Positions 28,934 to 44,883 of a stretch of 64,000 bases of DNA are shown here, piece by piece (position 1 is the stretch's first letter; each line of letters starts with the position of its first letter). The stretch covers positions 1 through 64,000 of the forward strand of contig NZ_RPOH01000030.1 in NCBI RefSeq assembly GCF_003818135.1. The letters run 5' to 3'. Source of the stretch: Buttiauxella warmboldiae. Lineage in GTDB: Bacteria > Pseudomonadota > Gammaproteobacteria > Enterobacterales > Enterobacteriaceae. Under the pieces are notes generated by a model. That model had not been told where the DNA came from, did not search any database, and was given only the letters and a program-made list of their open reading frames with translations. Position numbers and translations under genes: made by a program.

Positions 28934-30845
<1,912 letters not shown>

Positions 30846-31225
30846 ACAGTACGCTTAACAGATAAAAGACCGGAATGCCCATTGCGGTCAGATTGCTGAC
30901 AAAGTCCTGGTCGAAAGGCCGGGACTTTGCGCGAACAGAGCGAGGTCAATACAGAGACCGAACGCTCTCCTCAGAAACAACGCCTCTTCCAGTCGATGTT
31001 GACCACATTGCCGAGTACGTCAAAAAAAACAGCTCACAAAACGCGCCATGAAACTGGTGATTAAAAGAACAAGTGTGATATAGTTCACAAATCCTGTGGT
31101 GCGGGATTCTTCTTACATTTTCTGTAGCTACTCATTCCCCTGACGGTTCCGGGTTGTCATTGTTGCGCCTTGCGTCGCGCATAACCGTTGAGCGTAATGA
31201 GTTATGTGATTAAGGAATAGTTTTC
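30846..31225. other. Spacer between mdh and yjcB
   Basis: A 380-nt region without a supported gene. A strong stem CAAAGTCC (30900-30907)/GGGACTTTG (30921-30929) probably ends mdh transcripts. A perfect CRP core lies at 31074-31089, and CATAAC (31190-31195)/GTTATG (31201-31206) could fold in the yjcB leader. Confidence 0.6.
31074..31089 (+). promoter_or_regulatory. CRP-binding site upstream of yjcB
   Basis: TGTGATATAGTTCACA matches both CRP half-sites (TGTGA-N6-TCACA) perfectly. Its centre is about 144 nt before the yjcB start. A TACATT (31114-31119) could be a -10 element at roughly class II spacing. Confidence 0.7.
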
Positions 31226-31507
31226 ATGGCGGCAATTACTACCAGCGTGTTACTGCTGCGCTGGCCTTTAGTCAGTGCGGTGTTGATGTTTTTAGCCAGC
31301 ACGCTGAATATCCAGTTTCGCAAATCCGACTACACGTTTTTTGCCATCGTCAGCAGTATGGTGGGGATTGCGTCTGCGTTGTGGTTTGCGACCGGATTAT
31401 TGGGATTAGAACTGGCAGATTTCCCGGTTATCTGGGCATCGTTTAAAGACATTATGATTGAGATTTTAAGCCATACGCCCCCGGACTGGCCGGTGGTCGT
31501 TCCATGA
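31226..31507 (+). CDS. yjcB: YjcB, small membrane protein
   Basis: A 93-aa protein of unknown function with three hydrophobic segments (about 8-24, 34-50 and 52-68). The pattern LLRWPLVSAVLMFLASTLNI then FRKSDY is recognisably E. coli YjcB (93 aa), and the C-terminus ends TPPDWPVV. In E. coli yjcB is next to ssb; here a 9.3-kb operon lies between them. Confidence 0.85.
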   Translation: MAAITTSVLLLRWPLVSAVLMFLASTLNIQFRKSDYTFFAIVSSMVGIASALWFATGLLGLELADFPVIWASFKDIMIEILSHTPPDWPVVVP

Positions 31508-31575: not shown

Positions 31576-32595
31576 TTATTGGCCGCGAATATTCACCGTG
31601 CTTTTTCTGAATATCAGTTGCGCTTTTGCCCTGCTACCCGGCGGGACATCATGGCGGGCAATTTTTTCCAGCATCAACTGGCAGGCTTCCTGGGCAAGGC
31701 TGTGCTCATTTTGCCGCATTGACCAGATATTGTTGGCAAGGAAGCTCAGCATAATATTGTCATCGAAAGTGCCGAGATTGATTTCATGGGGAATATAGCC
31801 GTACCGCTCACGCAGCACGCCTAAAGCCCCCTGCAAAATCGGCAGCGAAGAGGCAATAAAATGCTGGGGCCAGCGCTGATGGGTATCGATGTAATCCGCC
31901 ATCATTTTTTCACCGTCGCTCAGCTGGTTATGCCCGGCGCTGCTGATGTGTTCAGGCATGATCCTGATGCCGTGCTGTTTCATGGCCGCGCGATAGCCCG
32001 CCAGGCGATCGATAATGGACGGTGAATCCGGGTCGCCGACAAAAAACTGAATCGGCGCGTGAATATGTTTTAGCATCGCATCCGTCAGCCGAAACCCGCT
32101 ATCCACGTTATCCGTCACTACGCAACACGCCCCCTCGACGCCAAAATCCCGGTCCAGAAAAACCAGCGGCTTCAGGCAGTTTTTCAGGTAGTGCGCCTGG
32201 CTTGCGGCATTGCTTGAAACGACGAAAATACCGTCAACGTTGCGATTTTCCAGCGATTTCACCAACAGCTTTTCATACGCCGTATCGTTATTGGTGCAGC
32301 TGATCATTAGCTGGTAGCCCAGCTCGCGGCAGCGCGCTTCCAGTAACTCGGCCAGGGCTGAAAAGAAGGGGTTAGACAGGCGCGGGATCACCAGGCCAAA
32401 GGTGTCCGTTTTATTAAGCTTTAAACTTCGCGCAGCAAGATTGATGGTATAGCTATGTTTTTTAACGTAACTATTGATTCTTTGCTGGGTTTTTTCGCTG
32501 ATGCGATATTTTTGCGCATTGCCATTTAGCACAGCTCGCACCGTGGTGATAGAGACGCCAAGATCCATGGCGATTTGCTCAATTGTCTTTGCCAA
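31576..32595 (-). CDS. LacI-family regulator of the TctCBA/kinase/isomerase operon
   Basis: A 339-aa LacI/GalR-family repressor. The N-terminal helix-turn-helix reads MAKTIEQIAMDLGVSITTVR and the NGNAQKYRISEKTQQRI hinge approach resembles the FruR/Cra subgroup. A periplasmic-binding-protein-like effector domain covers about 60-335. The start is TTG at 32595 with GGAAGAG upstream; no ATG gives a complete helix-turn-helix. It is the last gene of the operon, 12 nt after tctA, so it is likely made together with the genes it controls. Effector unknown, presumably the operon's substrate or an intermediate. Confidence 0.85.
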   Translation of the reverse strand: MAKTIEQIAMDLGVSITTVRAVLNGNAQKYRISEKTQQRINSYVKKHSYTINLAARSLKLNKTDTFGLVIPRLSNPFFSALAELLEARCRELGYQLMISCTNNDTAYEKLLVKSLENRNVDGIFVVSSNAASQAHYLKNCLKPLVFLDRDFGVEGACCVVTDNVDSGFRLTDAMLKHIHAPIQFFVGDPDSPSIIDRLAGYRAAMKQHGIRIMPEHISSAGHNQLSDGEKMMADYIDTHQRWPQHFIASSLPILQGALGVLRERYGYIPHEINLGTFDDNIMLSFLANNIWSMRQNEHSLAQEACQLMLEKIARHDVPPGSRAKAQLIFRKSTVNIRGQ

Positions 32596-32607
32596 TCTGA
32601 CTCTTCC

Positions 32608-34116
32608 TTAGCTGGGTTGTTTACGCCATAAGGCTTTTAAACGCGGGCCAAAAATCGGTAACAGCAGCGTCAGTATTGCGATAGCTAAAAACGCTGCGCA
32701 GACCGGACGCGTGAGGAAGATCATCGGGTCTCCTTCGGAGATAACCAGCGTGCGGCGGAAATTCGACTCTGCCATCGGCCCCAGAATAATACCAATAACA
32801 ATCGGCGACATCGAAAAATCCAGCTTAATCAGGACGTACGCCGCAAGCCCTGCGCCCATCATAACAAACACATCGGTCATATCGTGGTTGACGGAATAGG
32901 CCCCAACCGAGCACAGCACAAAGATAATCGGCACCAGCACGCGGCGCGGCACGCTCATCACTTTGGCAAATAAGCGCATCCCCATAAAGCCCATAATGCC
33001 CATAAAGATATTGGCGGCGAACAAGCCGATGAAAATCGAATTCACTTCAACTGGATGTTCGGTAAATAACTGCGGCCCGAGCGCCAGTCCCTGCACCATG
33101 AACGCGCCCATGATAATTGCCGTCGCGCCATCGCCTGGAATACCGAGGGTCATCAGTGGCACCATGGCGCCACCGGCCACGGAGTTTGCCCCCGCTTCCG
33201 GCGCTGAAACGCCTTCCGGTGAGCCGTGCCCAAATTCTTCCGGGTGTTTTGACCAGCGCTTGGCTTCGTTGTAAGCAATAAACGAGGCGATATCGCCACC
33301 AGTCCCAGGAATTGCGCCGATACCGGTACCGATCACCGACGAGCGAATATAGGTTGGCATCACGCGTTTAATATCAGACCAGGTGGGCAAAATGCGGTCA
33401 ATTTTACTTTTGGTCTGGCGCACCATTCCCGCCAGCCGTTCGCGGTGATCTTCTTCGAGGCTTAATAAACCCTGAGAGAAGGCAAACAAACCCACCAGCA
33501 CCGGAATAAATGAAATCCCGCCCATCAGGTAAATAGAATCAAAGGTAAAACGCATACCGCTGGTCATGGGATCCAGACCAATGGTGGCAATAAATAAGCC
33601 CAGCGCGCCGCCGATTAAGCCTTTAATCACCGAATGCGACGAAACGCTGGTAATAATACTGATGCCGAAAATAGCGAGAGCAAAATACTCTGCGGAAGAA
33701 AAGCCGGTGGCTACTTTAGCCAGCAGCGGTGCAATTAATACCAGGGCAATAGTGCTGAACACGCCGCCAAACATTGATGCCAATGTAGATAGCCCCAGCG
33801 CGCGTCCAGCCTCGCCACGTTTTGCCATCGGATAACCATCAAGCACCGTTGCCGCCGAAGCGGGCGTGCCCGGCGTGCTGATTAATATCGCCGTAATGGA
33901 ACCGCCATATACTGCCCCGCAATAAACGCCCAGCAGCATCAGAATGCCGGTCATGCCCTGGAAGGAGTAGGTTAGCGGCAGCAGCAGGGCGATACCCATA
34001 TTCACCGTTAAGCCGGGAAGCGCGCCAATGATGATGCCCGCCAGAACGCCAAGCAAAATCATGCCGGTGGTTTGCAGGCTAAAAACTATCATCAGGGCAT
34101 CAAGGATTTCGTTCAT
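32608..34116 (-). CDS. Tripartite tricarboxylate transporter permease, TctA family
   Basis: A 502-aa integral membrane protein with about a dozen hydrophobic segments, the large permease subunit of a TTT-type secondary transporter. The family signature is present near the N-terminus (GIIIGALPGLTVNMGIALLLPLTY and STPGTPASAATVLDGYP), with the duplicate motif GAIPGTGGDIASFIAYNEAKRWS around residue 265. TTT systems move carboxylates with a high-affinity periplasmic protein. It follows tctB by 9 nt. The substrate cannot be read from the sequence. Confidence 0.9.
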   Translation of the reverse strand: MNEILDALMIVFSLQTTGMILLGVLAGIIIGALPGLTVNMGIALLLPLTYSFQGMTGILMLLGVYCGAVYGGSITAILISTPGTPASAATVLDGYPMAKRGEAGRALGLSTLASMFGGVFSTIALVLIAPLLAKVATGFSSAEYFALAIFGISIITSVSSHSVIKGLIGGALGLFIATIGLDPMTSGMRFTFDSIYLMGGISFIPVLVGLFAFSQGLLSLEEDHRERLAGMVRQTKSKIDRILPTWSDIKRVMPTYIRSSVIGTGIGAIPGTGGDIASFIAYNEAKRWSKHPEEFGHGSPEGVSAPEAGANSVAGGAMVPLMTLGIPGDGATAIIMGAFMVQGLALGPQLFTEHPVEVNSIFIGLFAANIFMGIMGFMGMRLFAKVMSVPRRVLVPIIFVLCSVGAYSVNHDMTDVFVMMGAGLAAYVLIKLDFSMSPIVIGIILGPMAESNFRRTLVISEGDPMIFLTRPVCAAFLAIAILTLLLPIFGPRLKALWRKQPS

Positions 34117-34125
34117 CTTAGCCTC

Positions 34126-34593
34126 TTAAAATGACTCGGAAAATATCGATTCCGGCAGCGGTGAATTAAAGACAACTTCAAATGAAATATAAATACACAG
34201 CACAATCAGCGCGGTAGTGATGGCTAAAAATAGCGGACGCCGTTCACCCATTACCCACATAATCGCGGGAATCAAAATTAGCGATGAAACAATAAACCCG
34301 GCATAACAAAGCGCCACCGCGTATATCACCATCAAGGCTGCGACACCGTAGGCTTTACGCACCGGATAAGAGCTAAGATCGGCTTTCTCGCGGTTTGCAG
34401 CGCTACGCTGAAAATAGATGCTTAACCACTGGATAATACCTAAGCCGATAAATAACCAGGCCAGGGCGTAAGGCCAGAAACGCTCACCCAATATTCCGTT
34501 TTCATCAAACATCGGCATATTGCGCGAGAAGAAGATAATCGCGATCCCCAATATCAGAGAGAACATCCCAACAAAAAAATTCTGCGTTCGCAT
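34126..34593 (-). CDS. Tripartite tricarboxylate transporter small subunit, TctB family
   Basis: A 155-aa protein with four predicted transmembrane helices (about 8-24, 40-58, 84-104 and 118-142), the poorly conserved small membrane subunit of TTT transporters. Identification rests on size, helix pattern and its place between tctC- and tctA-type genes. GGAG lies upstream of the ATG. It is preceded by an intercistronic hairpin. Confidence 0.85.
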   Translation of the reverse strand: MRTQNFFVGMFSLILGIAIIFFSRNMPMFDENGILGERFWPYALAWLFIGLGIIQWLSIYFQRSAANREKADLSSYPVRKAYGVAALMVIYAVALCYAGFIVSSLILIPAIMWVMGERRPLFLAITTALIVLCIYISFEVVFNSPLPESIFSESF

Positions 34594-34605
34594 TGTCGAA
34601 TCTCC

Positions 34606-34631
34606 CTCCTGCCGGTAGCCACCGACAGGAG
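34606..34631 (-). other. Intercistronic hairpin between tctC and tctB
   Basis: CTCCTG-C-CGGT (34606-34616) pairs with ACCG-A-CAGGAG (34621-34631): ten base pairs, one mismatch, a 4-nt loop. It directly follows the binding-protein gene, a place where stem-loops often protect the upstream message and raise binding protein over permease. Confidence 0.7.
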
Positions 34632-34651
34632 ATGGGCCATATTTTTATCGA

Positions 34652-35623
34652 TTATTTTTTCTTGGTTTCGGCGATCAGTTTGCCGTACAGCTCGTGGTCG
34701 TCTTTCATCATTTCATAGGCGTCGTCACCGGTAATCACAACCGGCATAATGCCTTGTTTCTTCAGTGCTTCTTGATATGCCGGGGTTTTCACGACGGCGG
34801 TGAAGGTATCAACCAGCTGCTTCTTGATGCTGTCGTCCACTTTTGCGGTTGTCGCCAGCACCGCCCAGGCGCGCATTTTGACGTTCACATCCAGATTCAG
34901 CGCTTCCTTAAATGTCGGGACATCCGGGAACAGCGGGAAGCGTTGCTCATCCATCACGCCGAGCACTTTTAAAATACCGGCATCGGCCTGAGATTTAACT
35001 GAACCCGGCGTGGTTAACACCGCATCAATGTGCTCACCGACTAATGCGGCAATGGAAGGGCCCGTCCCTTCGTTATAAGGAATACGGTTGAATTTGGTGC
35101 CGGTAATTTTTTCGATGTTGATGGTCGCCAGATCATAAATTGCGCCCATGCCGGAGTTACCCACTTTAATTTTCCCCGGGTTCGCTTTTGCGGCATCAAT
35201 AAATTCTTGCAGCGTGTTGTATGGCGATTTGGCATTTACCACTACCGCAACGGGGTCAGCGATGGTAGTGACGATGGGGGTGAAATCTTTATAGGTCACC
35301 GGTGATTTCCCCTGGTGCGGGAACATCGCCAGCTCAACGGTGGTCATCACCAGTTTATAACCGTCAGGACGCGCTTTTGCGACCTCCAGCAGGCCCGTTA
35401 TTCCGTTACCCGCAGGTTTGTTGACCGGCACCAGCATGGTGCCAGACGGCATTCTGTCTCGGGCGAATTCAATCACGGTGCGCGCGGAGGTATCGGTGCC
35501 GCCTCCCGGGTTTTTCGGGATAACCACATCAATATTCTTTTTCGGGTACGTCAGGGTTGGTTCGGCATGAACCGCAGCAAACGGCAGCAGCATTAACAAG
35601 GCACATAACAGGTTGTTCTTCAT
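34652..35623 (-). CDS. Tripartite tricarboxylate transporter substrate-binding protein, TctC family
   Basis: A 323-aa periplasmic protein. The signal peptide ends at about residue 20 (AVHA) and the mature part starts EPTLTYPKKNID. The Bug/TctC fold is shown by VIPKNPGGGTDTSAR, a GNGITGLLEVAKARPDGY stretch and KVGNSGMGAIYDLA. Bug proteins usually bind carboxylated ligands through backbone contacts and two waters. Encoded between the sialidase-like gene and tctB. Confidence 0.92.
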   Translation of the reverse strand: MKNNLLCALLMLLPFAAVHAEPTLTYPKKNIDVVIPKNPGGGTDTSARTVIEFARDRMPSGTMLVPVNKPAGNGITGLLEVAKARPDGYKLVMTTVELAMFPHQGKSPVTYKDFTPIVTTIADPVAVVVNAKSPYNTLQEFIDAAKANPGKIKVGNSGMGAIYDLATINIEKITGTKFNRIPYNEGTGPSIAALVGEHIDAVLTTPGSVKSQADAGILKVLGVMDEQRFPLFPDVPTFKEALNLDVNVKMRAWAVLATTAKVDDSIKKQLVDTFTAVVKTPAYQEALKKQGIMPVVITGDDAYEMMKDDHELYGKLIAETKKK

Positions 35624-35639
35624 AGGGTACTCCGCTGTT

Positions 35640-36689
35640 TTAATTGTTGTGTGTAATGGTCTGGTAAACGATGTTTGTTCGGTTAAAGGTCCAGGTCAGA
35701 TGTAAAACCGCCCCCTCGGCAATAATGGCTGGATAGGAAAATTCACCTTTGCTGTGTTCCAAAGCCCAGGGCTGTGACCAGGTTGCGCCGTTATCCTGCG
35801 ATTCCAGTAAAGCAATCGGATAGCGGCGCCCCCAGTTTCCGGCGATGGGATTGCATGCCAGCACCAGCGTTCCACAGCTCAGTTTCACCGCATCAATTCC
35901 GCTGTTGTTATTGGGCAGGGAAGTGGCGTATGCAGCGCACCAGCTGCGGCCATAATCAACAGAATCAGTACGATAGACTTTTCCACGCGTGCTGCGTAGC
36001 AATGCATGGATCTTCCCGGGGTGTGATTCCCATAGCGTGGGCTGAATCACACCATCCCAGGCGAACACTTGCTTTAAATCGCATTCCCACAGCGCATTGT
36101 CTTGCAGCCCCTGCCAGGTGTTTTCGTCCGCTGTCTGCTCTGGCAACTGGTGCACAAAAGGAATGTCGACCTTGTGCCAGGACTGCCCGCAGTCCGCAGA
36201 AACATCGACAAATGCATCCCAGTGCTGATCATTTTCCGTTGAACCAGGCGCTAACCACTCGCCGTTACTCATCACCAGAATTTTATTTTTCACCGGCCCG
36301 CGTGGCTGTGTATCACCGTTGATAAGTGAACGAGGCTCGCTCCAGCTCTGGCCGCCATCCTGTGATACGGCTACGCGTGTAGTCCAGGTGTGCACATCTG
36401 GACCAACCTTATAAAACAGCCATACCGTGCCCTGCTGGTAATGCAGCACCGGATTCCAGTGCGCAACGCCCGGCTCCGCCATAATGCGCTGCGCCGGGTG
36501 CCATTCATTATGCTGCGAGCGCGCAAGCCAGATAGCGGTATCGCCGCTGCCTTCTTTCGTTCCGGCGAAAAAAGCCACCAGCACCGAATTGTGCTCCGGC
36601 AAGACCACCAGCGTAGAGGCATGGCATTGGGCAAAATCCGTTGGCGTTTCGGGTAGTAAAAACCGGCGGCTTTGCTGGATAAACGGCAT
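35640..36689 (-). CDS. Cytoplasmic sialidase-like protein with four Asp boxes (BNR family)
   Basis: A 349-aa six-bladed propeller candidate. Four Asp-box motifs of type S-x-D-x-G-x-[ST]-W are visible: SQDGGQSW, SADCGQSW, SVDYGRSW and SQDNGATW. There is no signal peptide, so it should act in the cytoplasm after uptake by TctCBA. Family knowledge: such BNR_2 proteins include sialidases and other glycosidases or glycan lyases, so the chemistry is open. Neighbours (lyase upstream, transporter downstream, gaps of 11 and 16 nt) suggest it removes a residue from an imported carboxylated glycoside. Confidence 0.8.
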   Translation of the reverse strand: MPFIQQSRRFLLPETPTDFAQCHASTLVVLPEHNSVLVAFFAGTKEGSGDTAIWLARSQHNEWHPAQRIMAEPGVAHWNPVLHYQQGTVWLFYKVGPDVHTWTTRVAVSQDGGQSWSEPRSLINGDTQPRGPVKNKILVMSNGEWLAPGSTENDQHWDAFVDVSADCGQSWHKVDIPFVHQLPEQTADENTWQGLQDNALWECDLKQVFAWDGVIQPTLWESHPGKIHALLRSTRGKVYRTDSVDYGRSWCAAYATSLPNNNSGIDAVKLSCGTLVLACNPIAGNWGRRYPIALLESQDNGATWSQPWALEHSKGEFSYPAIIAEGAVLHLTWTFNRTNIVYQTITHNN

Positions 36690-36700
36690 TGGTTTTCTCC

Positions 36701-37627
36701 TTATATCGCCAGGGTTTTCTGAAGATCGCGCCCCAGCTGTACCATGCTATCAATCGCCTGCGGGAAGAAGGTTTCCCCATAGCCCTGGCTGCTGCGCACC
36801 CGACAGGTGAGGGTCGAGAAATTACCTATTTGCTGCTGGAACGATTTCGCGCAAACCGGGTAATCAAGGTTTTCTGCCAGCGCCGCGGTAGAAAGGTAGT
36901 CTGCCAGGCGTTGGGCTTTTTCCGGCTGCGTCTGGAAGTTTTCGTACAGCCAGACGTACAGCTCAGGATGGAAGTTCGCCATCACGCCGCTGTAGGCCTG
37001 GCAACCGGCCCGCAATGAGGCAAGCAGCGTCTGGCTGTTGGCATTCGCCAGATGCAGGCGGCTGCCCTGGGTTAACGCCAGGCGGCGCTTGATAATTGGC
37101 AGGCTGCAACAGGTGTCTTTGATAAAGGTGTAGCGGCCGCTTTGCGCGCACCACGCCACGGTTTCCTCACTCAGTAAACGCTTATACGGGAACGGACATT
37201 CATAAATACCGAGATCGACATGCTTTGGTACCTCGGCAGTTAAGCGCTGTAAATTTTCCAGCGCCAGGGCGTCGCTTTCTCCCGCCAGAGCCAGACGGTT
37301 ACTGATAAGGATCACCGCATCCACGCCGCTATCCGACATGCTAACCAATTGTTCGCGCTGGTGATTAAAAGCATTAGCGGTATGGCCAGAAGCGACTACC
37401 GGCACGCGTCCTCGCACGCACTTCACGACAAATTTCACCAGTTCGAGAGATTCTTCGTCGCTTAAAAAGAACATTTCACTCGACTGGCAATCGGCAAATA
37501 AGCCGTGTACGCCAGCCGAGAGATACCACTCAATTAAGCGCTCGAGCGATGCCCAGTCGATCTCTTTTTGCTCGGTAAACGGCGTTAACATCACCGGCCA
37601 GATACCGCGGTATTTTTGTTCGTTCAT
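36701..37627 (-). CDS. DapA-family class I aldolase/lyase
   Basis: A 308-aa TIM-barrel enzyme of the dihydrodipicolinate synthase / N-acetylneuraminate lyase family. In the numbering that begins one codon earlier (TTG 37630), the Schiff-base lysine is K171 in TFIKDTCC and the catalytic tyrosine Y143 in GIYECPFPY. The family's GTTGE-like loop is changed to DCQSSEMF, which argues against pyruvate + aspartate-semialdehyde chemistry and for a sugar-acid substrate. ATG 37627 is preferred, with AGGAGG 5 nt upstream. The usual reaction would be reversible cleavage of a 2-keto-3-deoxy acid, or a dehydration. Confidence 0.85.
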   Translation of the reverse strand: MNEQKYRGIWPVMLTPFTEQKEIDWASLERLIEWYLSAGVHGLFADCQSSEMFFLSDEESLELVKFVVKCVRGRVPVVASGHTANAFNHQREQLVSMSDSGVDAVILISNRLALAGESDALALENLQRLTAEVPKHVDLGIYECPFPYKRLLSEETVAWCAQSGRYTFIKDTCCSLPIIKRRLALTQGSRLHLANANSQTLLASLRAGCQAYSGVMANFHPELYVWLYENFQTQPEKAQRLADYLSTAALAENLDYPVCAKSFQQQIGNFSTLTCRVRSSQGYGETFFPQAIDSMVQLGRDLQKTLAI

Positions 37628-37639
37628 CAACGCCTCCTC

Positions 37640-39286
37640 TTACAACAACCGAATTGCGTCACCGGCAACCTGTACCCGAATACCCTGGGTCAGCGACTGA
37701 GCAACGAAGGCCTGCAAAACCGTTTGCAGTTCATTTTCTGCCACATAAGCCACCGTCAGGTGGTTACTCTGATGGCCTGCCATTAAGTCATCTCTCCCCA
37801 CGCCATCCAGCACGGCGTTCAGCAGCGGCCATTCGTAGCAGGTGGCACGGCGGCGGCGTTCAAACTCGTCGGCGGGTAATTCCACCGCGTGGCCGGTGCC
37901 GATGTGCATGATGACGTCAGTCCCTTCGTAGTGCGCGCGCGCCCAGATAAAGCGCCCGGCTTTACCTTGCCCGCTGATAGTCGAGCCGCCATAAGGGAAG
38001 TACATCGCAGGCTGGCGATAGCCCGTTGCCCCGGCGATTCCCCCTTTCAGGTGTTCAAACGGAACGGCGCCAGAAATTTCCAGATCCCAGTAGAAGGTTC
38101 CCTGATAAATACTTCCCCAGCGAATATCGTGCAGCGTGGTTTCGGCAGGCAGAGAGAACGACGTCAGCAAGCGCCACAGCATGGTTTGCGGGATGGCGGT
38201 GCCCATATCCACTTCGTTGATGCACGGAATCGGCTGGCCTTCACAGATGATATTTCCCTGCTCGTCGGGGATAGGGAAACGCTCGGTTGAGCCAATTGCG
38301 CCTTCGGCAAAATCAGATGCCGCGCAGCTGTCTTTCAGGCCCTGTTGATATTGCACGCCTACCGCAGAAAGCCCAAAACGCTGTACGAAACGCACCATGG
38401 CAATCATCATCGCGCACTGTTCTTTGACCTGTTCGCGGGTCAATTCTTCACGGTCATTTTCACCAAACTGGAATTTCATGCCGCGTTCCTGATACCAGGC
38501 CAGGCATTCTTCACGCAGCTCGTCGGGCACTTTTGCCATTTCTACCAGTAGCGCAGACTGCGACAGCGATTCAATCGGCATGCCGATATTGACCATCGCC
38601 TGCTGCGGGAAGACGCCGTTAATCATCCCCATGCAGAAGGTGTCGAACAGGCCGAGGATCTCCTTATTTTTCAGGATAAATTCACCGGCATTGCGCCCCA
38701 TCGCTCCGGCCGGAGTTGCCATTACCGGGTGGGTCGGCGCAACGTCGTGCAAATAGCCGGTGGAGTGCTGCAACGAGCCGTAACGCAGCCAGGTTTGCAG
38801 ACCGTTAACGAACAGGTCGTCATCAAAATTTTCCGACCATAAACGCGAGTACGGTTTCCCGAGGCTGGTTAGCGATCCTGCCAGGCACAGCATGCCCACC
38901 AGTCCCGGCCAGGTGCCATCAAAGTTTGCCAGTAGCAAAACCGGGCCTTTGTGATGCATCAGCGATGGCGCAATATGGTGGGAATATTGCCAGGCCGTCA
39001 GCAGCACGATGAGCGGCGCGTTTTCATCGATTTGCGCGAACAGCGAGCTGCCCTGGCGCTGGCTGCTGATAAACCCGTGCCCACGCTCTTCATCAACGGG
39101 ATGAGCGCGTTTCATGGTGTAACCCAGTGAACTCAAGGCATCCTGTAATTTCGCTTCGTATTTTTGCTGCACCGGCCAGCAGGCAAGGTTGGCTGATTCG
39201 CGTAAATCAGCATTGGTGACCATCAGGATTTCATTGTTGCCCGCAGTGATGTTTTGCGCCACAGAAGGTAGAGTTTGCGTAATCAC
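37640..39286 (-). CDS. L-fucose isomerase family protein
   Basis: A 548-aa protein of the FucI/AraA aldose-ketose isomerase superfamily. Candidate metal ligands are E328 (SDFAEGA), D360 (NEVDMG) and H466 (GTGHAVEL), in the order expected for fucose isomerases. It is shorter than E. coli FucI (591 aa) and diverged, so the sugar cannot be assigned. The start is GTG at 39286 with AAGGA upstream. It lies 21 nt after the kinase gene, and isomerase-kinase pairing is standard for pentose and deoxysugar pathways. Confidence 0.82.
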   Translation of the reverse strand: MITQTLPSVAQNITAGNNEILMVTNADLRESANLACWPVQQKYEAKLQDALSSLGYTMKRAHPVDEERGHGFISSQRQGSSLFAQIDENAPLIVLLTAWQYSHHIAPSLMHHKGPVLLLANFDGTWPGLVGMLCLAGSLTSLGKPYSRLWSENFDDDLFVNGLQTWLRYGSLQHSTGYLHDVAPTHPVMATPAGAMGRNAGEFILKNKEILGLFDTFCMGMINGVFPQQAMVNIGMPIESLSQSALLVEMAKVPDELREECLAWYQERGMKFQFGENDREELTREQVKEQCAMMIAMVRFVQRFGLSAVGVQYQQGLKDSCAASDFAEGAIGSTERFPIPDEQGNIICEGQPIPCINEVDMGTAIPQTMLWRLLTSFSLPAETTLHDIRWGSIYQGTFYWDLEISGAVPFEHLKGGIAGATGYRQPAMYFPYGGSTISGQGKAGRFIWARAHYEGTDVIMHIGTGHAVELPADEFERRRRATCYEWPLLNAVLDGVGRDDLMAGHQSNHLTVAYVAENELQTVLQAFVAQSLTQGIRVQVAGDAIRLL

Positions 39287-39307
39287 GTTCTTATTCCTTG
39301 TCTGTCA

Positions 39308-40903
39308 TTAAAGGGCCACGAGGGTTTGCTGCATGGCAGCCTGATAGCGCTGCTGGTGCTGGTACATTTGCAGATACACCTGATATTTCGCGTCGTGGAA
39401 TGCGCGGTGTGCGGCGTCGGGTTCAATGGTTTTATCGCGCCTTACCATCGCGCCAGCCGCCGCTGAAAAACTGCTGAACGCCTTGCAGGCAACCGCGCCA
39501 TTGAGCGCCGCCCCAAGCGTGACGGCGTCTTCTTCTGCAACCAGATGAATGGCGCGCCCGGTGACGTTGGCGTATTCACGCAGCCAGAGCGGGTTTTTGC
39601 TCGCGCCGCCGCACAGCGTTATCGACTCAATGCGCTGGCCGTTTTGTTCCATGGTGTCGATGATGTGGCGCGTGCCGTAGGCGATGGCTTGCAGCGTCGC
39701 GAGGTATAAACGTGCAAGCGCAGGCTGGCCTTTCTCAAGCGTGAGCCCGGCGACCATGCCACGGGCGTTGGCGTCAGAGCGCGGCGAGCGGTTGCCGTGG
39801 TGGTCAGCCAGAACATGGAGCTGGCGGGTCGGATATTTTTCGCAGGCTTCGAGTTCGCTTACCCACTGGTTAAGGATTTGGTAGACGCTACAGCCCAGCG
39901 CGTCGGCTTCGTTTCTTAGCGCAGGCCAGGCGTCACTTTGCATGACAGTCCAGTCCACCAGCGCCCCGGCGGCACTTTGCCCGCCTTCGTTCAGCCACCA
40001 GCCTGGGTACATTGCCGCGAAGTATGGCCCCCAAACCCCCGGCACTGATTTTGCCTCTTTGCTGACAATCATATGGCAATTCGAGGTACCGCTAATTATC
40101 GCCAGATTGGCTTCGGGAGCCGCCGCGACTAACGCAAGCCCGCCCGCGTGGGCGTCAATCAAACCGCTGGCGACCACGACATCAGGCGTTAAGCCCAGCT
40201 GTGCGGCCACATCGGTGCGTAAGGTGCCGACAGGCTGCCCAACCTGAATAATATTCGCTGGGATTTTATTCACTAAATCCGTTAATTCGACCGACTCAAG
40301 CAGACTCTGGCTGAACCGTTCTTCGTGCGCCAGGTAGTTCCACTTGCAGGTCAGCGTACAAACTCCCGCCGCATCAACGCCCGTGGCGCGCCACACCAGG
40401 TAATCGGCTAAGTCAAAGAAACGCCAGGCGGCGCTATAGCGCTCGGGGAAATGGTTTTTCAGCCACAGGATTTTCGGCAATTCCATCTCAATGCTGACCT
40501 GCCCGCCGACGTATTGCAGCGCGGAATCATGCGTGGCGTTGATACGTTGAGTTTCAACGCCCGCGCGGTGATCCATCCACATCACGATATCGTGGTCGGG
40601 GTCGCCTTCTTCACCCACCGCTACCGGTTGCCCACGATCGCCCACTGCCACCAATGAACAGGTTGCGTCGAATCCAATGGCGGCCACTTGCTGTGGTCGC
40701 ACCCCGGCAAGGCTGATCGCCTCGCGCACCGTGGTGCACACCTGCTGCCAGATATCGCTGGAGGATTGCTCTACTCGATTAGGCTGGTAGTGAAACTGCT
40801 GGATAGGACGAACAGAAAATGCCAGGCGGGTGCCTTCCATGGTGAAAATACCTGCTCTGACACTCGCGGAACCCACATCAACGCCAACAAATAATTTACT
40901 CAT
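39308..40903 (-). CDS. FGGY-family pentulose/sugar kinase
   Basis: A 531-aa carbohydrate kinase of the ribulokinase-like branch (FGGYp). The N-terminal ATPase motif VGVDVGSASVRAGIF and the C-terminal CGGASKNPLWLREYANVTG are clear, with WMDHRA and SGLIDAHAGG typical of this branch. I chose ATG 40903, with GAGAG 8 nt upstream (40912-40916), over an in-frame ATG 15 nt earlier that lacks a site. It is the first gene of the operon. Phosphorylation of the ketose made by the neighbouring isomerase is the likely role. Confidence 0.87.
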   Translation of the reverse strand: MSKLFVGVDVGSASVRAGIFTMEGTRLAFSVRPIQQFHYQPNRVEQSSSDIWQQVCTTVREAISLAGVRPQQVAAIGFDATCSLVAVGDRGQPVAVGEEGDPDHDIVMWMDHRAGVETQRINATHDSALQYVGGQVSIEMELPKILWLKNHFPERYSAAWRFFDLADYLVWRATGVDAAGVCTLTCKWNYLAHEERFSQSLLESVELTDLVNKIPANIIQVGQPVGTLRTDVAAQLGLTPDVVVASGLIDAHAGGLALVAAAPEANLAIISGTSNCHMIVSKEAKSVPGVWGPYFAAMYPGWWLNEGGQSAAGALVDWTVMQSDAWPALRNEADALGCSVYQILNQWVSELEACEKYPTRQLHVLADHHGNRSPRSDANARGMVAGLTLEKGQPALARLYLATLQAIAYGTRHIIDTMEQNGQRIESITLCGGASKNPLWLREYANVTGRAIHLVAEEDAVTLGAALNGAVACKAFSSFSAAAGAMVRRDKTIEPDAAHRAFHDAKYQVYLQMYQHQQRYQAAMQQTLVAL

Positions 40904-41231
40904 TTTTTGTGCTCTCATCGGCTACTGCGTCGAGAAAGCATATTGGTTAAGTGAACCGCTAAACACAACTTCTGGTGGTTTAATTTGTGATCGATACGAC
41001 AAGCCGGATGGGGCTTCAAATGAAAATTTAAAGTTAACTTGTTGTTTTCAAATTGTTTAATAAAGAGTGATTTTTAATCTATTTTTGAACGCATCATAAC
41101 CGCTTAAAAAAACATCGGGCTAGCTTGAATCGGCTGTTTTGCTGGCCCTTCGGCCTGGGTACCGCAACGAAATAGCGTGGAATACTACGCTGTGCCTTCT
41201 TGCTCTGTCAGTAAACTCTTTATCTTATTGT
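40904..41231 (-). promoter_or_regulatory. Presumed promoter/operator region of the catabolic operon
   Basis: A 328-nt A+T-rich gene-free stretch between the kinase gene and the ssb terminator. It must hold the operon promoter. Candidate regulator sites are the palindrome AAGTTAACTT (41031-41040), the imperfect palindrome GGTTAAGTGAACC (40946-40958) and a weak CRP-like TGTGATCGATACGACA (40986-41001, one half good). I cannot fix -35 and -10 elements with confidence. Confidence 0.45.
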
Positions 41232-42058: not shown

Positions 42059-44883
42059 ATGGATAAGATCGAAGTTCGGGGCGCCCGCACCCACAATCTC
42101 AAAAATATTAACCTCGATATTCCACGCGACAAGCTGATTGTCGTGACTGGGCTTTCGGGTTCTGGCAAATCCTCACTGGCTTTCGACACCTTATACGCCG
42201 AGGGGCAGCGTCGTTACGTTGAGTCCCTCTCCGCCTATGCGCGTCAGTTCCTGTCATTGATGGAAAAACCGGATGTCGACCATATTGAAGGCTTGTCGCC
42301 GGCGATTTCTATCGAACAGAAATCCACCTCGCACAACCCGCGTTCAACCGTTGGCACTATTACAGAAATTCATGATTACCTGCGTCTGCTGTATGCCCGC
42401 GTGGGCGAGCCGCGCTGCCCGGATCACAACGTGCCGCTGGCGGCGCAAACCGTCAGCCAGATGGTCGATAACGTTTTAGCGCAGCCGGAAGGCAAGCGCC
42501 TGATGCTGCTGGCGCCGATTATTAAAGACAGAAAAGGCGAGCACGCGAAAACGCTGGAAAACCTTGCAAGCCAGGGGTATATCCGCGCCAGGATCGACGG
42601 TGAAGTCTGCGATCTTTCCGATCCGCCAAAGCTAGAATTACAGAAAAAACACACTATTGAAGTGGTGGTTGACCGTTTTAAAGTGCGCGAAGATATCGCC
42701 CAGCGCCTGGCGGAATCCTTTGAAACCGCGCTGGATTTATCCGGTGGCTCTGCGGTTGTCGCCGATATGGATGACGAAAAAGCAGAAGAGCTGCTGTTCT
42801 CGGCAAACTTCGCCTGCCCAATTTGCGGTTACAGCATGCGCGAGCTGGAGCCGCGCCTGTTCTCGTTCAACAACCCGGCCGCGCCTGCCCAACCTGTGAC
42901 GGCCTTGGCGTGCAGCAATATTTTGATCCTGAACGAGTGGTGCAAAACGGTGAGCTTTCCCTTGCCGGCGGCGCGATCCGCGGCTGGGATCGCCGTAATT
43001 TCTATTACTTCACGATGATGCGCTCCCTTGCCGAGCACTATAAGTTTGATATCGAAACGCCGTGGAACGAGCTGAGCGCCAGCGTGAAAAACGTGGTGCT
43101 GAACGGTTCGGGTAAAGAAAGTATTGAATTCAAATATATCAATGACCGTGGTGATACTTCGGTGCGCCGCCATCCGTTCGAAGGCGTGCTGCATAATATG
43201 GAGCGTCGCTATAAAGAAACCGAATCTTCTGCGGTGCGCGAAGAGCTGGCGAAATTTATCAGCAACCGTTCGTGCTCAAGCTGTGAAGGGACGCGCCTGC
43301 GCCGCGAAGCGCGCCACGTGTTCGTTGAAAACACGCCGTTGCCGACCATCTCTGATATGAGCATCGGCCATGCGCTGGAGTTCTTCCAGAACATGAAACT
43401 CAGCGGCCAGCGGGCGCAAATCGCTGAGAAAGTGCTGAAGGAGATCGGCGATCGCCTGAAATTTCTCGTCAATGTGGGTCTGAATTACCTCTCGCTTTCC
43501 CGTTCCGCCGAGACGCTCTCCGGCGGCGAAGCGCAGCGTATCCGTCTGGCAAGCCAGATCGGGGCGGGTCTGGTGGGCGTGATGTATGTGCTTGATGAGC
43601 CGTCAATTGGCCTGCACCAGCGCGATAACGAACGTTTACTGGAAACGCTGATCCACCTGCGCGATCTCGGCAATACCGTGATTGTGGTGGAGCACGACGA
43701 AGATGCGATTCGTGCCGCAGATCATATTATTGATATCGGTCCGGGGGCGGGCGTGCACGGCGGCCAGGTTGTTGCTGAAGGCTCGATGCAGGACATTATG
43801 GATGTGCCAGAGTCTCTGACCGGGCAGTTCCTGAGCGGCAAACGTGAAATTGCCGTGCCGCAGCAGCGTGTACCGGCCGATGCAGCAAAAGTGCTGCAGC
43901 TGGTTGGCGCCAAAGGTAACAACCTGAAAGACGTCACATTGACGCTGCCGGTCGGCCTGTTTACCTGCGTGACCGGGGTTTCCGGCTCCGGAAAATCAAC
44001 GCTGATTAACGACACTTTATTCCCTATCGCCCAGCGTCAGCTTAACGGCGCAACGATTGCCGAACCTGCGCCATATCGCGACGTTCACGGGCTGGAGCAT
44101 TTCGACAAGGTCATTGATATTGACCAGAGCCCGATTGGCCGTACGCCACGCTCAAACCCGGCAACCTATACCGGCGTGTTTACGCCGGTGCGCGAGCTGT
44201 TTGCCGGCGTGCCGGAATCCCGTGCGCGTGGTTATACGCCTGGGCGTTTCAGCTTTAACGTGCGTGGTGGGCGTTGTGAAGCCTGCCAGGGCGACGGCGT
44301 CATCAAAGTAGAGATGCACTTCCTGCCGGATATTTACGTACCGTGCGACCAGTGCCGCGGCAAGCGTTATAACCGCGAAACGCTGGAAATTAAGTACAAA
44401 GGCAAGAGCATCCACGAAGTGCTGGATATGACCATTGAAGACGCTCGTGAGTTCTTCGATGCCGTTCCTGCACTGGCGCGTAAGCTGCAAACGCTGATCG
44501 ACGTCGGCCTCTCCTACATTCGCCTCGGTCAGTCGGCGACGACGCTTTCTGGCGGTGAAGCACAGCGTGTGAAGCTGGCGCGTGAGCTGTCCAAACGCGG
44601 GACCGGCCAGACGCTGTATATCCTCGATGAGCCGACAACCGGCCTGCATTTTGCGGATATCCAGCAGCTACTGGAAGTGCTGCATCAGCTGCGCGACCAG
44701 GGCAATACCATCGTGGTAATCGAGCACAATCTGGACGTGATTAAAACCGCGGACTGGATTGTTGACCTCGGCCCGGAAGGCGGCAGCGGCGGCGGTGAAA
44801 TCCTGGTTTCAGGCACGCCAGAAACGGTCGCGGAATGTGAAGCGTCGCATACCGCGCGTTTCCTCAAACCTTTACTGAAGTAG
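42059..44883 (+). pseudogene. uvrA: UvrA excinuclease subunit with a one-base frameshift
   Basis: This is uvrA in full length (about 940 codons), but it reads in two frames. The first part (from ATG 42059) carries Walker [17 protein letters not shown] and the first zinc-finger half CPICGY. After the codons for SFNNPA (about 42880) the frame is lost and a stop comes at 43018. The rest continues in another frame from [13 protein letters not shown] to the stop at 44883, with both ABC signatures and the second Walker [24 protein letters not shown] lacks one G relative to the expected CCGGCCGGCGCC. The gene is otherwise conserved, so recent mutation or a base-call error are both possible. Confidence 0.9.

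Follow-up and report, generated by a model that had tools for sequence, protein, structure and literature searches.

An eight-gene operon of Buttiauxella warmboldiae that looks like a route for an acidic sugar, most likely Kdo

The window (the whole 64,000-nucleotide stretch of Buttiauxella warmboldiae DNA analysed here) carries an operon of eight minus-strand genes. All eight open reading frames claimed by an earlier, sequence-only reading are present, with intergenic gaps of 12, 9, 58, 16, 11, 9 and 21 nt, and they are listed with a predicted operator in Table 1. The operon is inserted, as that reading had it, between yjcB and ssb, both of which flank it in the window, YjcB being identified by its match to the E. 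coli sequence. YjcB and Ssb also flank the operon in two of the three genus mates fetched, while in the third Ssb lies on another contig. The further claim, that the two genes are neighbours in E. coli, was not confirmed: the single E. coli record examined has other sugar genes next to yjcB. The kinase start at 40903, where the earlier reading had placed the end of the operon, is preferred over an upstream ATG at 40918, which is also open, because two genus mates, L104 and L106, use the equivalent start. A promoter scan was uninformative, with 8 promoter-like sites against 8.2 expected.

Table 1. Genes of the operon and its predicted operator, in window coordinates
Feature	Position	Strand	Length	Basis
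FGGY pentulose kinase, predicted D-ribulokinase	39308..40903	-	531 aa	TIGR01315; BL21 kinase identity
Aldose-ketose isomerase, FucI/AraA fold, predicted D-arabinose isomerase	37640..39286	-	548 aa	AlphaFold2/Foldseek
DapA-family class I lyase, predicted Kdo (2-keto-3-deoxy-octonate) aldolase	36701..37630	-	309 aa	Pfam DHDPS
Sialidase-fold BNR_2 protein, predicted to act on ulosonate or its glycoside	35640..36689	-	349 aa	
TctC-type periplasmic solute-binding protein	34652..35623	-	323 aa	Pfam TctC
TctB small membrane subunit	34126..34593	-	155 aa	Pfam TctB
TctA large membrane subunit	32608..34116	-	502 aa	Pfam TctA
LacI-family regulator	31576..32595	-	339 aa	Pfam LacI and periplasmic-binding domains
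Predicted LacI operator TGCTTTCTCGACGCAGTA	40923..40940	-		19 nt upstream of kinase start; conserved palindrome

The gene set recurs well beyond this genus. A genome scan gave at least 582 relatives, and among the best 80 loci kept from these, seven have the full order kinase-isomerase-lyase-sialidase-fold protein-TctC-TctB-TctA-LacI; they belong to Atlantibacter, Leminorella, three Proteus species, Brenneria and Symbiopectobacterium. The three genus mates share this order, as does a Proteus entry of PLSDB, and the recurrence of the order exceeds chance. The co-occurrence search suggested earlier thus recovers the set across several genera, and unrelated phylogenies, which would have spoken against a common inheritance, are not seen. 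The pairwise distances of the other genes correlate with those of the isomerase (28 non-independent pairs), with coefficients of 0.85 for TctA, 0.83 for TctC, 0.83 for the BNR protein, 0.75 for TctB, 0.64 for LacI, 0.56 for the FGGY kinase and just 0.37 for the DapA-family lyase. These correlations make joint inheritance of the operon genes likely, with the lyase as the weakest case. The module is patchy through Proteobacteria, with probable relatives in Bacteroidota and Actinobacteria, and it occurs on plasmids too. The neighbour proteins compared with Pfam were chosen by hand (40, then 10 more). Other isomerase clusters contain mandelate-racemase, SDR, HpcH or RraA genes, which counts against the reading preferred below.

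The LacI protein shares 49% identity with the LacI regulator found at the DarK locus of E. coli BL21 and is predicted to bind the palindrome upstream of the kinase. This operator is identical in two genus mates and differs by one base in the third, and related sites stand at like positions in other loci. Its pattern, which was built with the window's own site in view, matches once in the window against 0.04 expected. In the B. warmboldiae genome, at up to three mismatches, the motif gives one exact and one three-mismatch site and the reversed control gives six, which confines the information to the exact match. The search of five other genomes, allowing two mismatches at most, gives six operator places and none for the reversed control. 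One is a second predicted operator in Acerihabitans, a perfect palindrome with two mismatches to the motif, 46 nt before a dar-type ABC transporter; the genes behind it encode this transporter, 69, 82 and 73% identical to that of E. coli BL21, together with FucI (80%) and a FucU relative, which counts for D-arabinose as the sugar. The operator was not found upstream of the E. coli BL21 DarK gene (9 mismatches) or at loci L027, L028, L029, L030 and L032 (6 to 9 mismatches), which counts against the preferred reading.

The kinase and the isomerase point to the sugar. The kinase matches Pfam FGGY_N and FGGY_C and belongs to the FGGY pentulose kinase subfamily TIGR01315 (553 bits, cut-off 408.7). 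It shares 61% identity over 521 aa with the FGGY kinase of the E. coli BL21 fucose locus, against 43% with the kinase of the ribitol operon in E. coli WG5, and of these two E. coli kinases it is nearer the former. At that position of the fucose locus the available part of PMC12307932 places DarK, which is needed for D-arabinose use, and from its genomic place and this description the BL21 gene is taken to be DarK. The window kinase is accordingly predicted, from its kinship, to be a D-ribulokinase of the DarK type; the name of the nearest solved kinase, 3gg4, glycerol or xylulose kinase, counts against D-ribulose. The kinase gene of locus L020 comes after genes for a FucU-family protein and a phosphoketolase, which counts for D-arabinose.

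The isomerase scores 24 bits with Pfam Fucose_iso_C, below the cut-off of 29.3, and is thus a separate branch of the superfamily rather than a FucI orthologue. Its AlphaFold2 model (pLDDT 93) nevertheless has the FucI fold: the top Foldseek matches are L-fucose isomerases, the D-arabinose isomerase of Bacillus pallidus and L-arabinose isomerases at TM about 0.5, with E values of 1e-20 to FucI and 4e-19 to the B. pallidus enzyme, although FucI structures are matched only loosely, with an rmsd of about 22 when all aligned columns are included. The best PDB profile match is the D-arabinose isomerase 3a9r, a weak one at E 0.015. E358, D387 and H509, candidates for the metal-binding Glu, Asp and His, show no variation across 28 sequences. 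On the strength of the model the protein is predicted to be a D-arabinose isomerase. D-arabinan-degrading families adjoin related isomerase-kinase pairs, namely GH172 in L086, GH116 in L082 and L071, and GH183/DUF4185 in L084 and L043, and four of the five actinobacterial loci scanned (L043, L071, L082 and L084, but not L089) have such a family near the isomerase. Most characterised members of GH116 are beta-glucosidases, according to the available part of PMC10509167. The D-arabinose half of the pathway is well supported, and the aldose is very probably D-arabinose.

The lyase is a class I enzyme of the DHDPS/NAL superfamily, with a Pfam DHDPS score of 73 bits (cut-off 22.1); the Schiff-base Lys171, Tyr143 and Glu52 are the same in all 21 sequences of an alignment. 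It stands well under the NCBIfam cut-offs for NanA (33.8 bits against 382), DapA and KdgD. The pyruvate-binding motif of the superfamily, G-[ST]-T-G-E, is absent; the protein's own branch has CxSSEM, and the Glu alone is kept throughout the alignment. More distant aligned relatives have TTGE or similar where the window lyase has QSSEM, so that it may be something other than an aldolase. From its family and context it is predicted to be an aldolase for Kdo (3-deoxy-D-manno-oct-2-ulosonate).

The next protein combines a sialidase fold with an altered active site. It matches Pfam BNR_2 at 240 bits and has four Asp boxes of the SxDxGxxW form (residues 109, 164, 243 and 297), and its model (pLDDT 88) finds the sialidases NEU1 and Neu2 as top Foldseek matches; fold and Asp boxes are those of a GH33 sialidase. 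R232 and R289 align with the second and third sialidase Arg and Y319 with the Tyr nucleophile, all invariant in 12 of 12 sequences. The position of the first Arg, placed by eye, is H23 in 12 of 12, and that of the Glu partner of the Tyr, placed by residue numbering, is Q216 in 12 of 12; by alignment, then, the protein appears to be without two sialidase catalytic residues. Its N-terminus is not strongly hydrophobic, unlike that of TctC, and it is probably cytosolic. Of the 13 lyase loci, 10 have the gene, and of the three without it L021 ends just after the lyase. The two altered residues and these absences count against the preferred reading.

That the sugar arrives as an acid is suggested mainly by the transporter. 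The adjacent tctA, tctB and tctC genes (525, 58.5 and 159 bits, all over the Pfam cut-offs) form a tripartite tricarboxylate transporter (TTT), and among the PDB relatives of TctC are BugD, Bug27 and a terephthalate-binding protein. Of 13 close loci that contain the lyase, 9 have TTT or TRAP genes no more than 6 kb from the isomerase, compared with 0 of 14 that lack it (Fisher p 1.5e-4, uncorrected for kinship). Three lyase loci (L018, L034 and L036) have MFS transporters in place of TTT, so the argument is not universal. The transporter of L020 is a TRAP system, with sialic-acid SiaP proteins among the best PDB matches, and L021 has ahead of its kinase a gene of the YhcH family, which is linked to sialate anomerase. 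Among solved structures, the one closest to the TRAP binding protein of L020 is 4pf6, which reportedly contains bound Kdo. Relatives of a 4pf6-like protein of L061 (E up to 1e-60) occur in 76 of 295 genomes of one family; a DHDPS-family gene is present in 7 of 30 short stretches around such relatives and in 4 of 12 longer stretches, those four preselected for earlier matches, and the isomerase was found in none of these 30 and 12. L061 itself carries both the isomerase and the 4pf6-like protein. The TRAP clue for Kdo is weak. From the whole of the gene set, we infer that the acid is a 2-keto-3-deoxy acid yielding D-arabinose, most simply Kdo.

The operon can then be read, with moderate confidence, as a full pathway for breaking down a 2-keto-3-deoxy sugar acid with a D-arabinose half, the acid most likely being Kdo. 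TctC would capture the acid in the periplasm and TctAB import it; the sialidase-fold protein may free it from a glycoside or bring it to the right anomer; and the DapA-family lyase would cleave it, through a lysine Schiff base, to pyruvate and D-arabinose. The FucI-fold isomerase would convert D-arabinose to D-ribulose and the DarK-like kinase D-ribulose to D-ribulose-5-phosphate, which would enter the pentose phosphate pathway, with control by the LacI protein on the palindrome just upstream of the kinase. The self-contained route for a carboxylated sugar proposed from the sequence, with its isomerase and FGGY kinase, is retained here, and its description as of unknown substrate gives way to a very probable D-arabinose and a Kdo-like acid.

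The imported compound could instead be another acid containing D-arabinose, such as an acidic D-arabinosyl glycoside cut by the sialidase-fold protein, with the isomerase and kinase burning the D-arabinose and the DapA-like lyase taking the other half. The frequency of the sialidase-fold gene among lyase loci and the D-arabinose half, the best-supported part of the pathway, both suit this reading. Yet three lyase loci, one on a contig that ends there, are without that gene, so that lyase, isomerase and kinase seem to suffice, and we know of no natural acidic D-arabinosyl compound common enough to account for the operon's spread; we regard such a glycoside as unlikely. The lyase might also work in an oxidative branch that runs in parallel and takes D-arabinose or D-arabinonate. 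The transporter would then import D-arabinonate, and 2-keto-3-deoxy-arabinonate would be split to pyruvate and glycolaldehyde, or dehydrated. In favour of this, the isomerase of the sister clusters L003, L019 and L098 is accompanied by a dehydratase of the mandelate-racemase family, an SDR and a DHDPS protein other than the window's, and so is that of L035, which has no such kinase nearby. The DHDPS protein of the L003 cluster, however, is just 26% identical to the window lyase, and by Pfam the operon has no dehydrogenase or mandelate-racemase-type dehydratase, which leaves the oxidative branch quite improbable.

A nonulosonate substrate (sialic acid or Kdn), cleaved to pyruvate and a hexose, is suggested by the sialidase fold, by the superfamily shared with NanA and by the SiaP-like TRAP protein of a sister cluster. 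We consider it very improbable given the low NanA score, the FucI/AraA fold of the isomerase, a kinase nearest a pentulose kinase, and eight genes that include no N-acetylmannosamine kinase or epimerase family. An L-fucose-like acid could also replace Kdo: L-fucose differs from D-arabinose by one additional methyl group, and FucI-type enzymes accept both sugars, as is established for FucI; a distant isomerase near a sulfatase in a Verrucomicrobiales genome (L044) may indeed serve L-fucose. But the kinase is nearest the DarK-locus kinase among those compared, and several related isomerases neighbour D-arabinan-degrading families, and to this reading we give the least credence. Some simpler labels were rejected outright: a sialic acid operon (NanA cut-off missed, isomerase and kinase of the wrong type), a plain D-arabinose operon (lyase and TTT left unexplained) and a generic operon for uronates or aldonates (the eight genes include no oxidoreductase).

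The preferred route, by way of Kdo, has a biochemical precedent. Kdo aldolase, or 3-deoxy-D-manno-octulosonate aldolase (EC 4.1.2.23), was reportedly described and purified by Ghalambor and Heath in 1966. Its products are D-arabinose and pyruvate, as the available part of PMC4412817 states in citing Ghalambor and Heath (1966). Literature searches found no gene assigned to this enzyme; the reaction is the one predicted for the window lyase, to which the window would add a gene, an importer and the rest of the pathway. The closest known locus is the L-fucose/D-arabinose locus of E. coli B with DarK (Elsinghorst and Mortlock 1994, via the available part of PMC12307932). It is alike in its kinase (61%) and LacI regulator (49%), and the same aldose and ketose are predicted. 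It has an ABC sugar transporter and FucI, of which the window isomerase is just a distant fold relative, whereas the window operon has TTT, and the stretch examined has no lyase of the window's family and no carboxylate transporter. The D-arabinan clusters of Actinobacteria and Bacteroidota (GH183/GH172/GH116), as far as they are described in the available part of PMC10509167, also use an isomerase and a kinase for D-arabinose, but there it comes from a polysaccharide, with an ABC transporter, and here it is proposed to come from an acid by a lyase, with TTT. Sialic acid catabolism (NanA, SiaP/TRAP, sialidases, YhcH) is similar in having an ulosonate importer, a class I pyruvate lyase and a sialidase-fold protein; the window products, however, would go via D-arabinose and not ManNAc, the lyase is far from NanA, and the sialidase-fold protein appears by alignment to be without two catalytic residues. 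No characterised operon matching the whole set emerged from literature searches, in agreement with the earlier statement that no described pathway with this gene set is known.

Nearly all Gram-negative lipopolysaccharides contain Kdo, as does the rhamnogalacturonan II of plants, and no described gene set for its catabolism was found in literature searches. The balance tips slightly towards this operon being the first gene set for growth on Kdo, comprising the missing Kdo aldolase gene, the first TTT importer for Kdo and a Kdo-adapted sialidase-fold protein. If so, bacteria would feed on Kdo from the lipopolysaccharide inner core or from plant rhamnogalacturonan II, the enzyme of 1966 would gain its gene, and a TTT transporter and a distant branch of the FucI superfamily would gain a substrate. 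The operon would then also be a marker for Kdo-recycling bacteria in gut, soil and plants. In some gut and plant bacteria, it looks like a system for importing an acidic sugar, most likely the Kdo of bacterial cell walls and plants.

The eight minus-strand genes described in the sequence-only reading are all present, with intergenic gaps of 9 to 58 nt, and Pfam returns the same gene families; the isomerase is the least secure of them, its sole match, to Fucose_iso_C, falling below threshold. The reported flanking of the operon by YjcB and Ssb also stands, both in the window and in two genus mates, which carry two extra genes beside Ssb; in a third genus mate YjcB adjoins the operon and Ssb is on a separate contig. 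The G+C content of the operon is close to that of its surroundings in the window. In the genus mates, genes for a peptidase-like protein (M20-type by eye) and an amino-acid-type binding protein (by eye) lie directly upstream of the kinase gene, before ssb where the contig includes it, and the window has 389 nt in this place. The yjcB neighbourhood may be an insertion spot. In the window mdh directly adjoins yjcB, and a tblastn search with Mdh found no match in the stretches surrounding the equivalent position in each of the three genus mates; this is either a rearrangement or a misassembly. The uvrA gene, a housekeeping gene, is read in two overlapping frames, most likely because of a sequencing or assembly error.

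Features of the window and of related loci in other genomes
Feature	Location	Coordinates	Strand
Operon: kinase, isomerase, DapA-family lyase, four-Asp-box protein, TctC, TctB, TctA, LacI	window	31576-40903	minus
Candidate LacI site	window	40923-40940	
mdh with adjoining yjcB	window	29862-31505	
uvrA	window	42059-44883	
uvrA, one frame	window	42059-43018	
uvrA, other frame	window	42823-44883	
Peptidase-like and binding-protein genes	genus mate, L104	5413-7383	
Peptidase-like and binding-protein genes	genus mate, L105	15114-17123	
Peptidase-like and binding-protein genes	genus mate, L106	14845-16854	
Carbohydrate porin and MFS genes adjoining yjcB	E. coli SCU-301, L183	3350-6185	
Lyase (about 45% identical), PfkB kinase and YhcH-family gene	Salmonella plasmid, L093	6772-9428	
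Lyase (about 45% identical), PfkB kinase and YhcH-family gene; also MFS gene	Pantoea plasmid, L094	6757-10777	
GH78 alpha-L-rhamnosidase adjoining kinase and isomerase	Cohaesibacter, L032	5634-8315	

The module is patchily distributed, since the four-Asp-box gene occurs in 4 of 12 genomes of the genus and the isomerase in 2/295 genomes of an order sample and 2/398 of a phylum sample, the same two genomes, both of this genus. An alignment of ten isomerases, used to scan named genomes, brought up at least 582 relatives, and the best 80 were kept, 27 of them close (66-85% identity) and 53 distant (41-47%). The proposed co-occurrence of the eight families was borne out in the neighbourhoods of these best 80 of at least 582, seven of which have the complete order (Atlantibacter, Leminorella, three Proteus, Brenneria and Symbiopectobacterium). 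Pleomorphomonas (L026) has the set minus the kinase within the stretch examined, a Martelella plasmid has the lyase, the sialidase-like gene and TctCBA, and an MFS transporter replaces the tripartite TctABC transporter (TTT) in Dickeya, Mangrovibacter, one Klebsiella plasmid and Acerihabitans, the last without the sialidase-like gene. When pairwise distances were compared with isomerase distances over 28 non-independent pairs, correlations for the seven other genes ran from 0.37 (lyase) to 0.85 (TctA); that the lyase fits worst is a point against the reading favoured below.

The reading we favour is that the operon would import Kdo and degrade it via D-arabinose. The kinase, assigned to TIGR01315, shows 61% identity to one kinase, located in the fucose locus of E. 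coli BL21 alongside ABC transporter and LacI genes, and 43% to another, from the ribitol operon of E. coli WG5; its closest solved structure is 3gg4, which is named both glycerol kinase and xylulose kinase. A passage of PMC12307932 places DarK, the D-ribulokinase needed for D-arabinose use, in the fucose locus. With TM values of about 0.5, the top structural matches of the isomerase model (pLDDT 93) are L-fucose isomerases, the D-arabinose isomerase of Bacillus pallidus and L-arabinose isomerases. Isomerase-kinase pairs lie next to a transaldolase and a DUF2961 protein in Salinisphaera (L086) and, as distant relatives, next to GH116 in Micromonospora and Catellatospora and DUF4185 in Streptomyces and Actinotalea; in a section of PMC10115798, DUF2961 is GH172, including exo-D-arabinofuranosidases, and DUF4185 is GH183, including endo-D-arabinanases. 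Against this, the distant isomerase of locus L044, near a sulfatase, may act on L-fucose.

With D-arabinose as the aldose, the lyase would be expected to free it from a 2-keto-3-deoxy acid. Its Lys171, Tyr143 and Glu52 are invariant across 21 aligned family members, and it reads CQSSEM in place of the usual GTTGE-type motif. In Sphingobacterium a lyase 36-39% identical, near an isomerase, keeps the CxSSEM, YECPxPYKR and KDTC stretches, and an SSF transporter is present at both of the loci scanned, out of three. Kdo is the acid known to yield these products: its cleavage to D-arabinose and pyruvate appears in a passage of PMC4412817, which cites Ghalambor and Heath (1966). The predicted lyase, isomerase and kinase would together account for all eight Kdo carbons, matching the operon content.

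Among the best 80 of at least 582 relatives, 13 of the 27 close isomerase loci have the lyase gene; nine of these 13 have TTT or TRAP genes no more than 6 kb from the isomerase, vs none of the 14 lyase-less loci (p 1.5e-4, indicative only because Proteus enters three times). ABC transporters for sugars as well as MFS proteins occur among the lyase-less clusters. The MFS protein that stands in for TTT at some loci counts against the favoured reading. Formivibrio (L020) has the order phosphoketolase, FucU-family gene, kinase, isomerase, lyase, TRAP binding protein and TRAP permease, and in Accumulibacter (L021) a YhcH-family gene precedes the kinase; the TRAP/4pf6 lead is a weak one. If the PfkB protein of the two plasmid loci is a D-arabinose kinase, it would offer an alternative route into the same pathway. 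Kinase and isomerase of Cohaesibacter (L032) have a GH78 alpha-L-rhamnosidase as their neighbour; in RG-II, Kdo is capped by rhamnose.

A further point against the favoured reading is that the isomerase itself may serve more than one substrate, as suggested by sister clusters of other content. Three of these (L098, L003, L019) have the order kinase, isomerase, MFS, mandelate racemase, SDR and DHDPS; they come from an E. coli genome, where IS elements surround the cluster and the stretch ends after DHDPS, from a Klebsiella plasmid and from Gilliamella. K. spallanzanii (L035) has this cluster with no kinase nearby. The kinase has matches over at least 80% in 82 of 5426 E. coli genomes, and the cluster context comes from one of them. 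In five other loci (L006, L007, L008, L025, L088) the isomerase is accompanied by SDR and RraA-family genes, and in four also by an HpcH aldolase, which places other pyruvate-aldolase families next to the isomerase.

The model of the four-Asp-box protein (pLDDT 88) matches NEU1, Neu2 and bacterial sialidases. By alignment, R232 and R289 correspond to the second and third arginines of sialidases and Y319 to the nucleophilic tyrosine, all invariant in 12 of 12 sequences; H23 occupies the place of the first arginine and Q216 that of the glutamate partner, again in 12/12, these two positions having been assigned partly by eye. Two of the 12 have Asn instead of D50. The N-terminus is without strong hydrophobicity. 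The protein may act as an anomerase or as a glycosidase with a modified mechanism, each with roughly an even chance.

An 18-nt palindrome upstream of the kinase gene reads TGCTAACTCGAGTTAGCA in Brenneria, Symbiopectobacterium and Mangrovibacter, and sites with at most two mismatches occur in 13 of the 26 upstream regions examined, three of the 13 being included by construction. The window has TGCTTTCTCGACGCAGTA in the same kind of position, with six mismatches from this consensus; it is identical in two genus mates, differs by one base in the third, and reads TGCTTTCTCGAAGCAGCA in Atlantibacter. The LacI DNA-binding domain has VRAVL in the window and Atlantibacter vs VRLVL in the 12 others listed, and the VRAVL proteins pair with TT at site positions 5-6, the others with AA or AC; we infer that LacI binds the palindrome. 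No such palindrome was found upstream of the BL21 DarK gene or of several lyase-less isomerase-kinase clusters. Acerihabitans has a second site, AGCTAACTCGAGTTAGCT, 46 nt upstream of genes for an ABC transporter that shares 69-82% identity with its counterpart in the E. coli DarK locus; FucI (80%) and then a FucU relative follow the transporter.

A literature search for Kdo aldolase (including its systematic name) and Kdo catabolism or lyase found no gene, which is not proof because most subscription journals lie outside its coverage; the Kdo aldolase search did find an engineered L-KDO aldolase named in the literature. The operon would belong with sugar-acid catabolic operons, a class already known, in which it may fill a long-standing gap.
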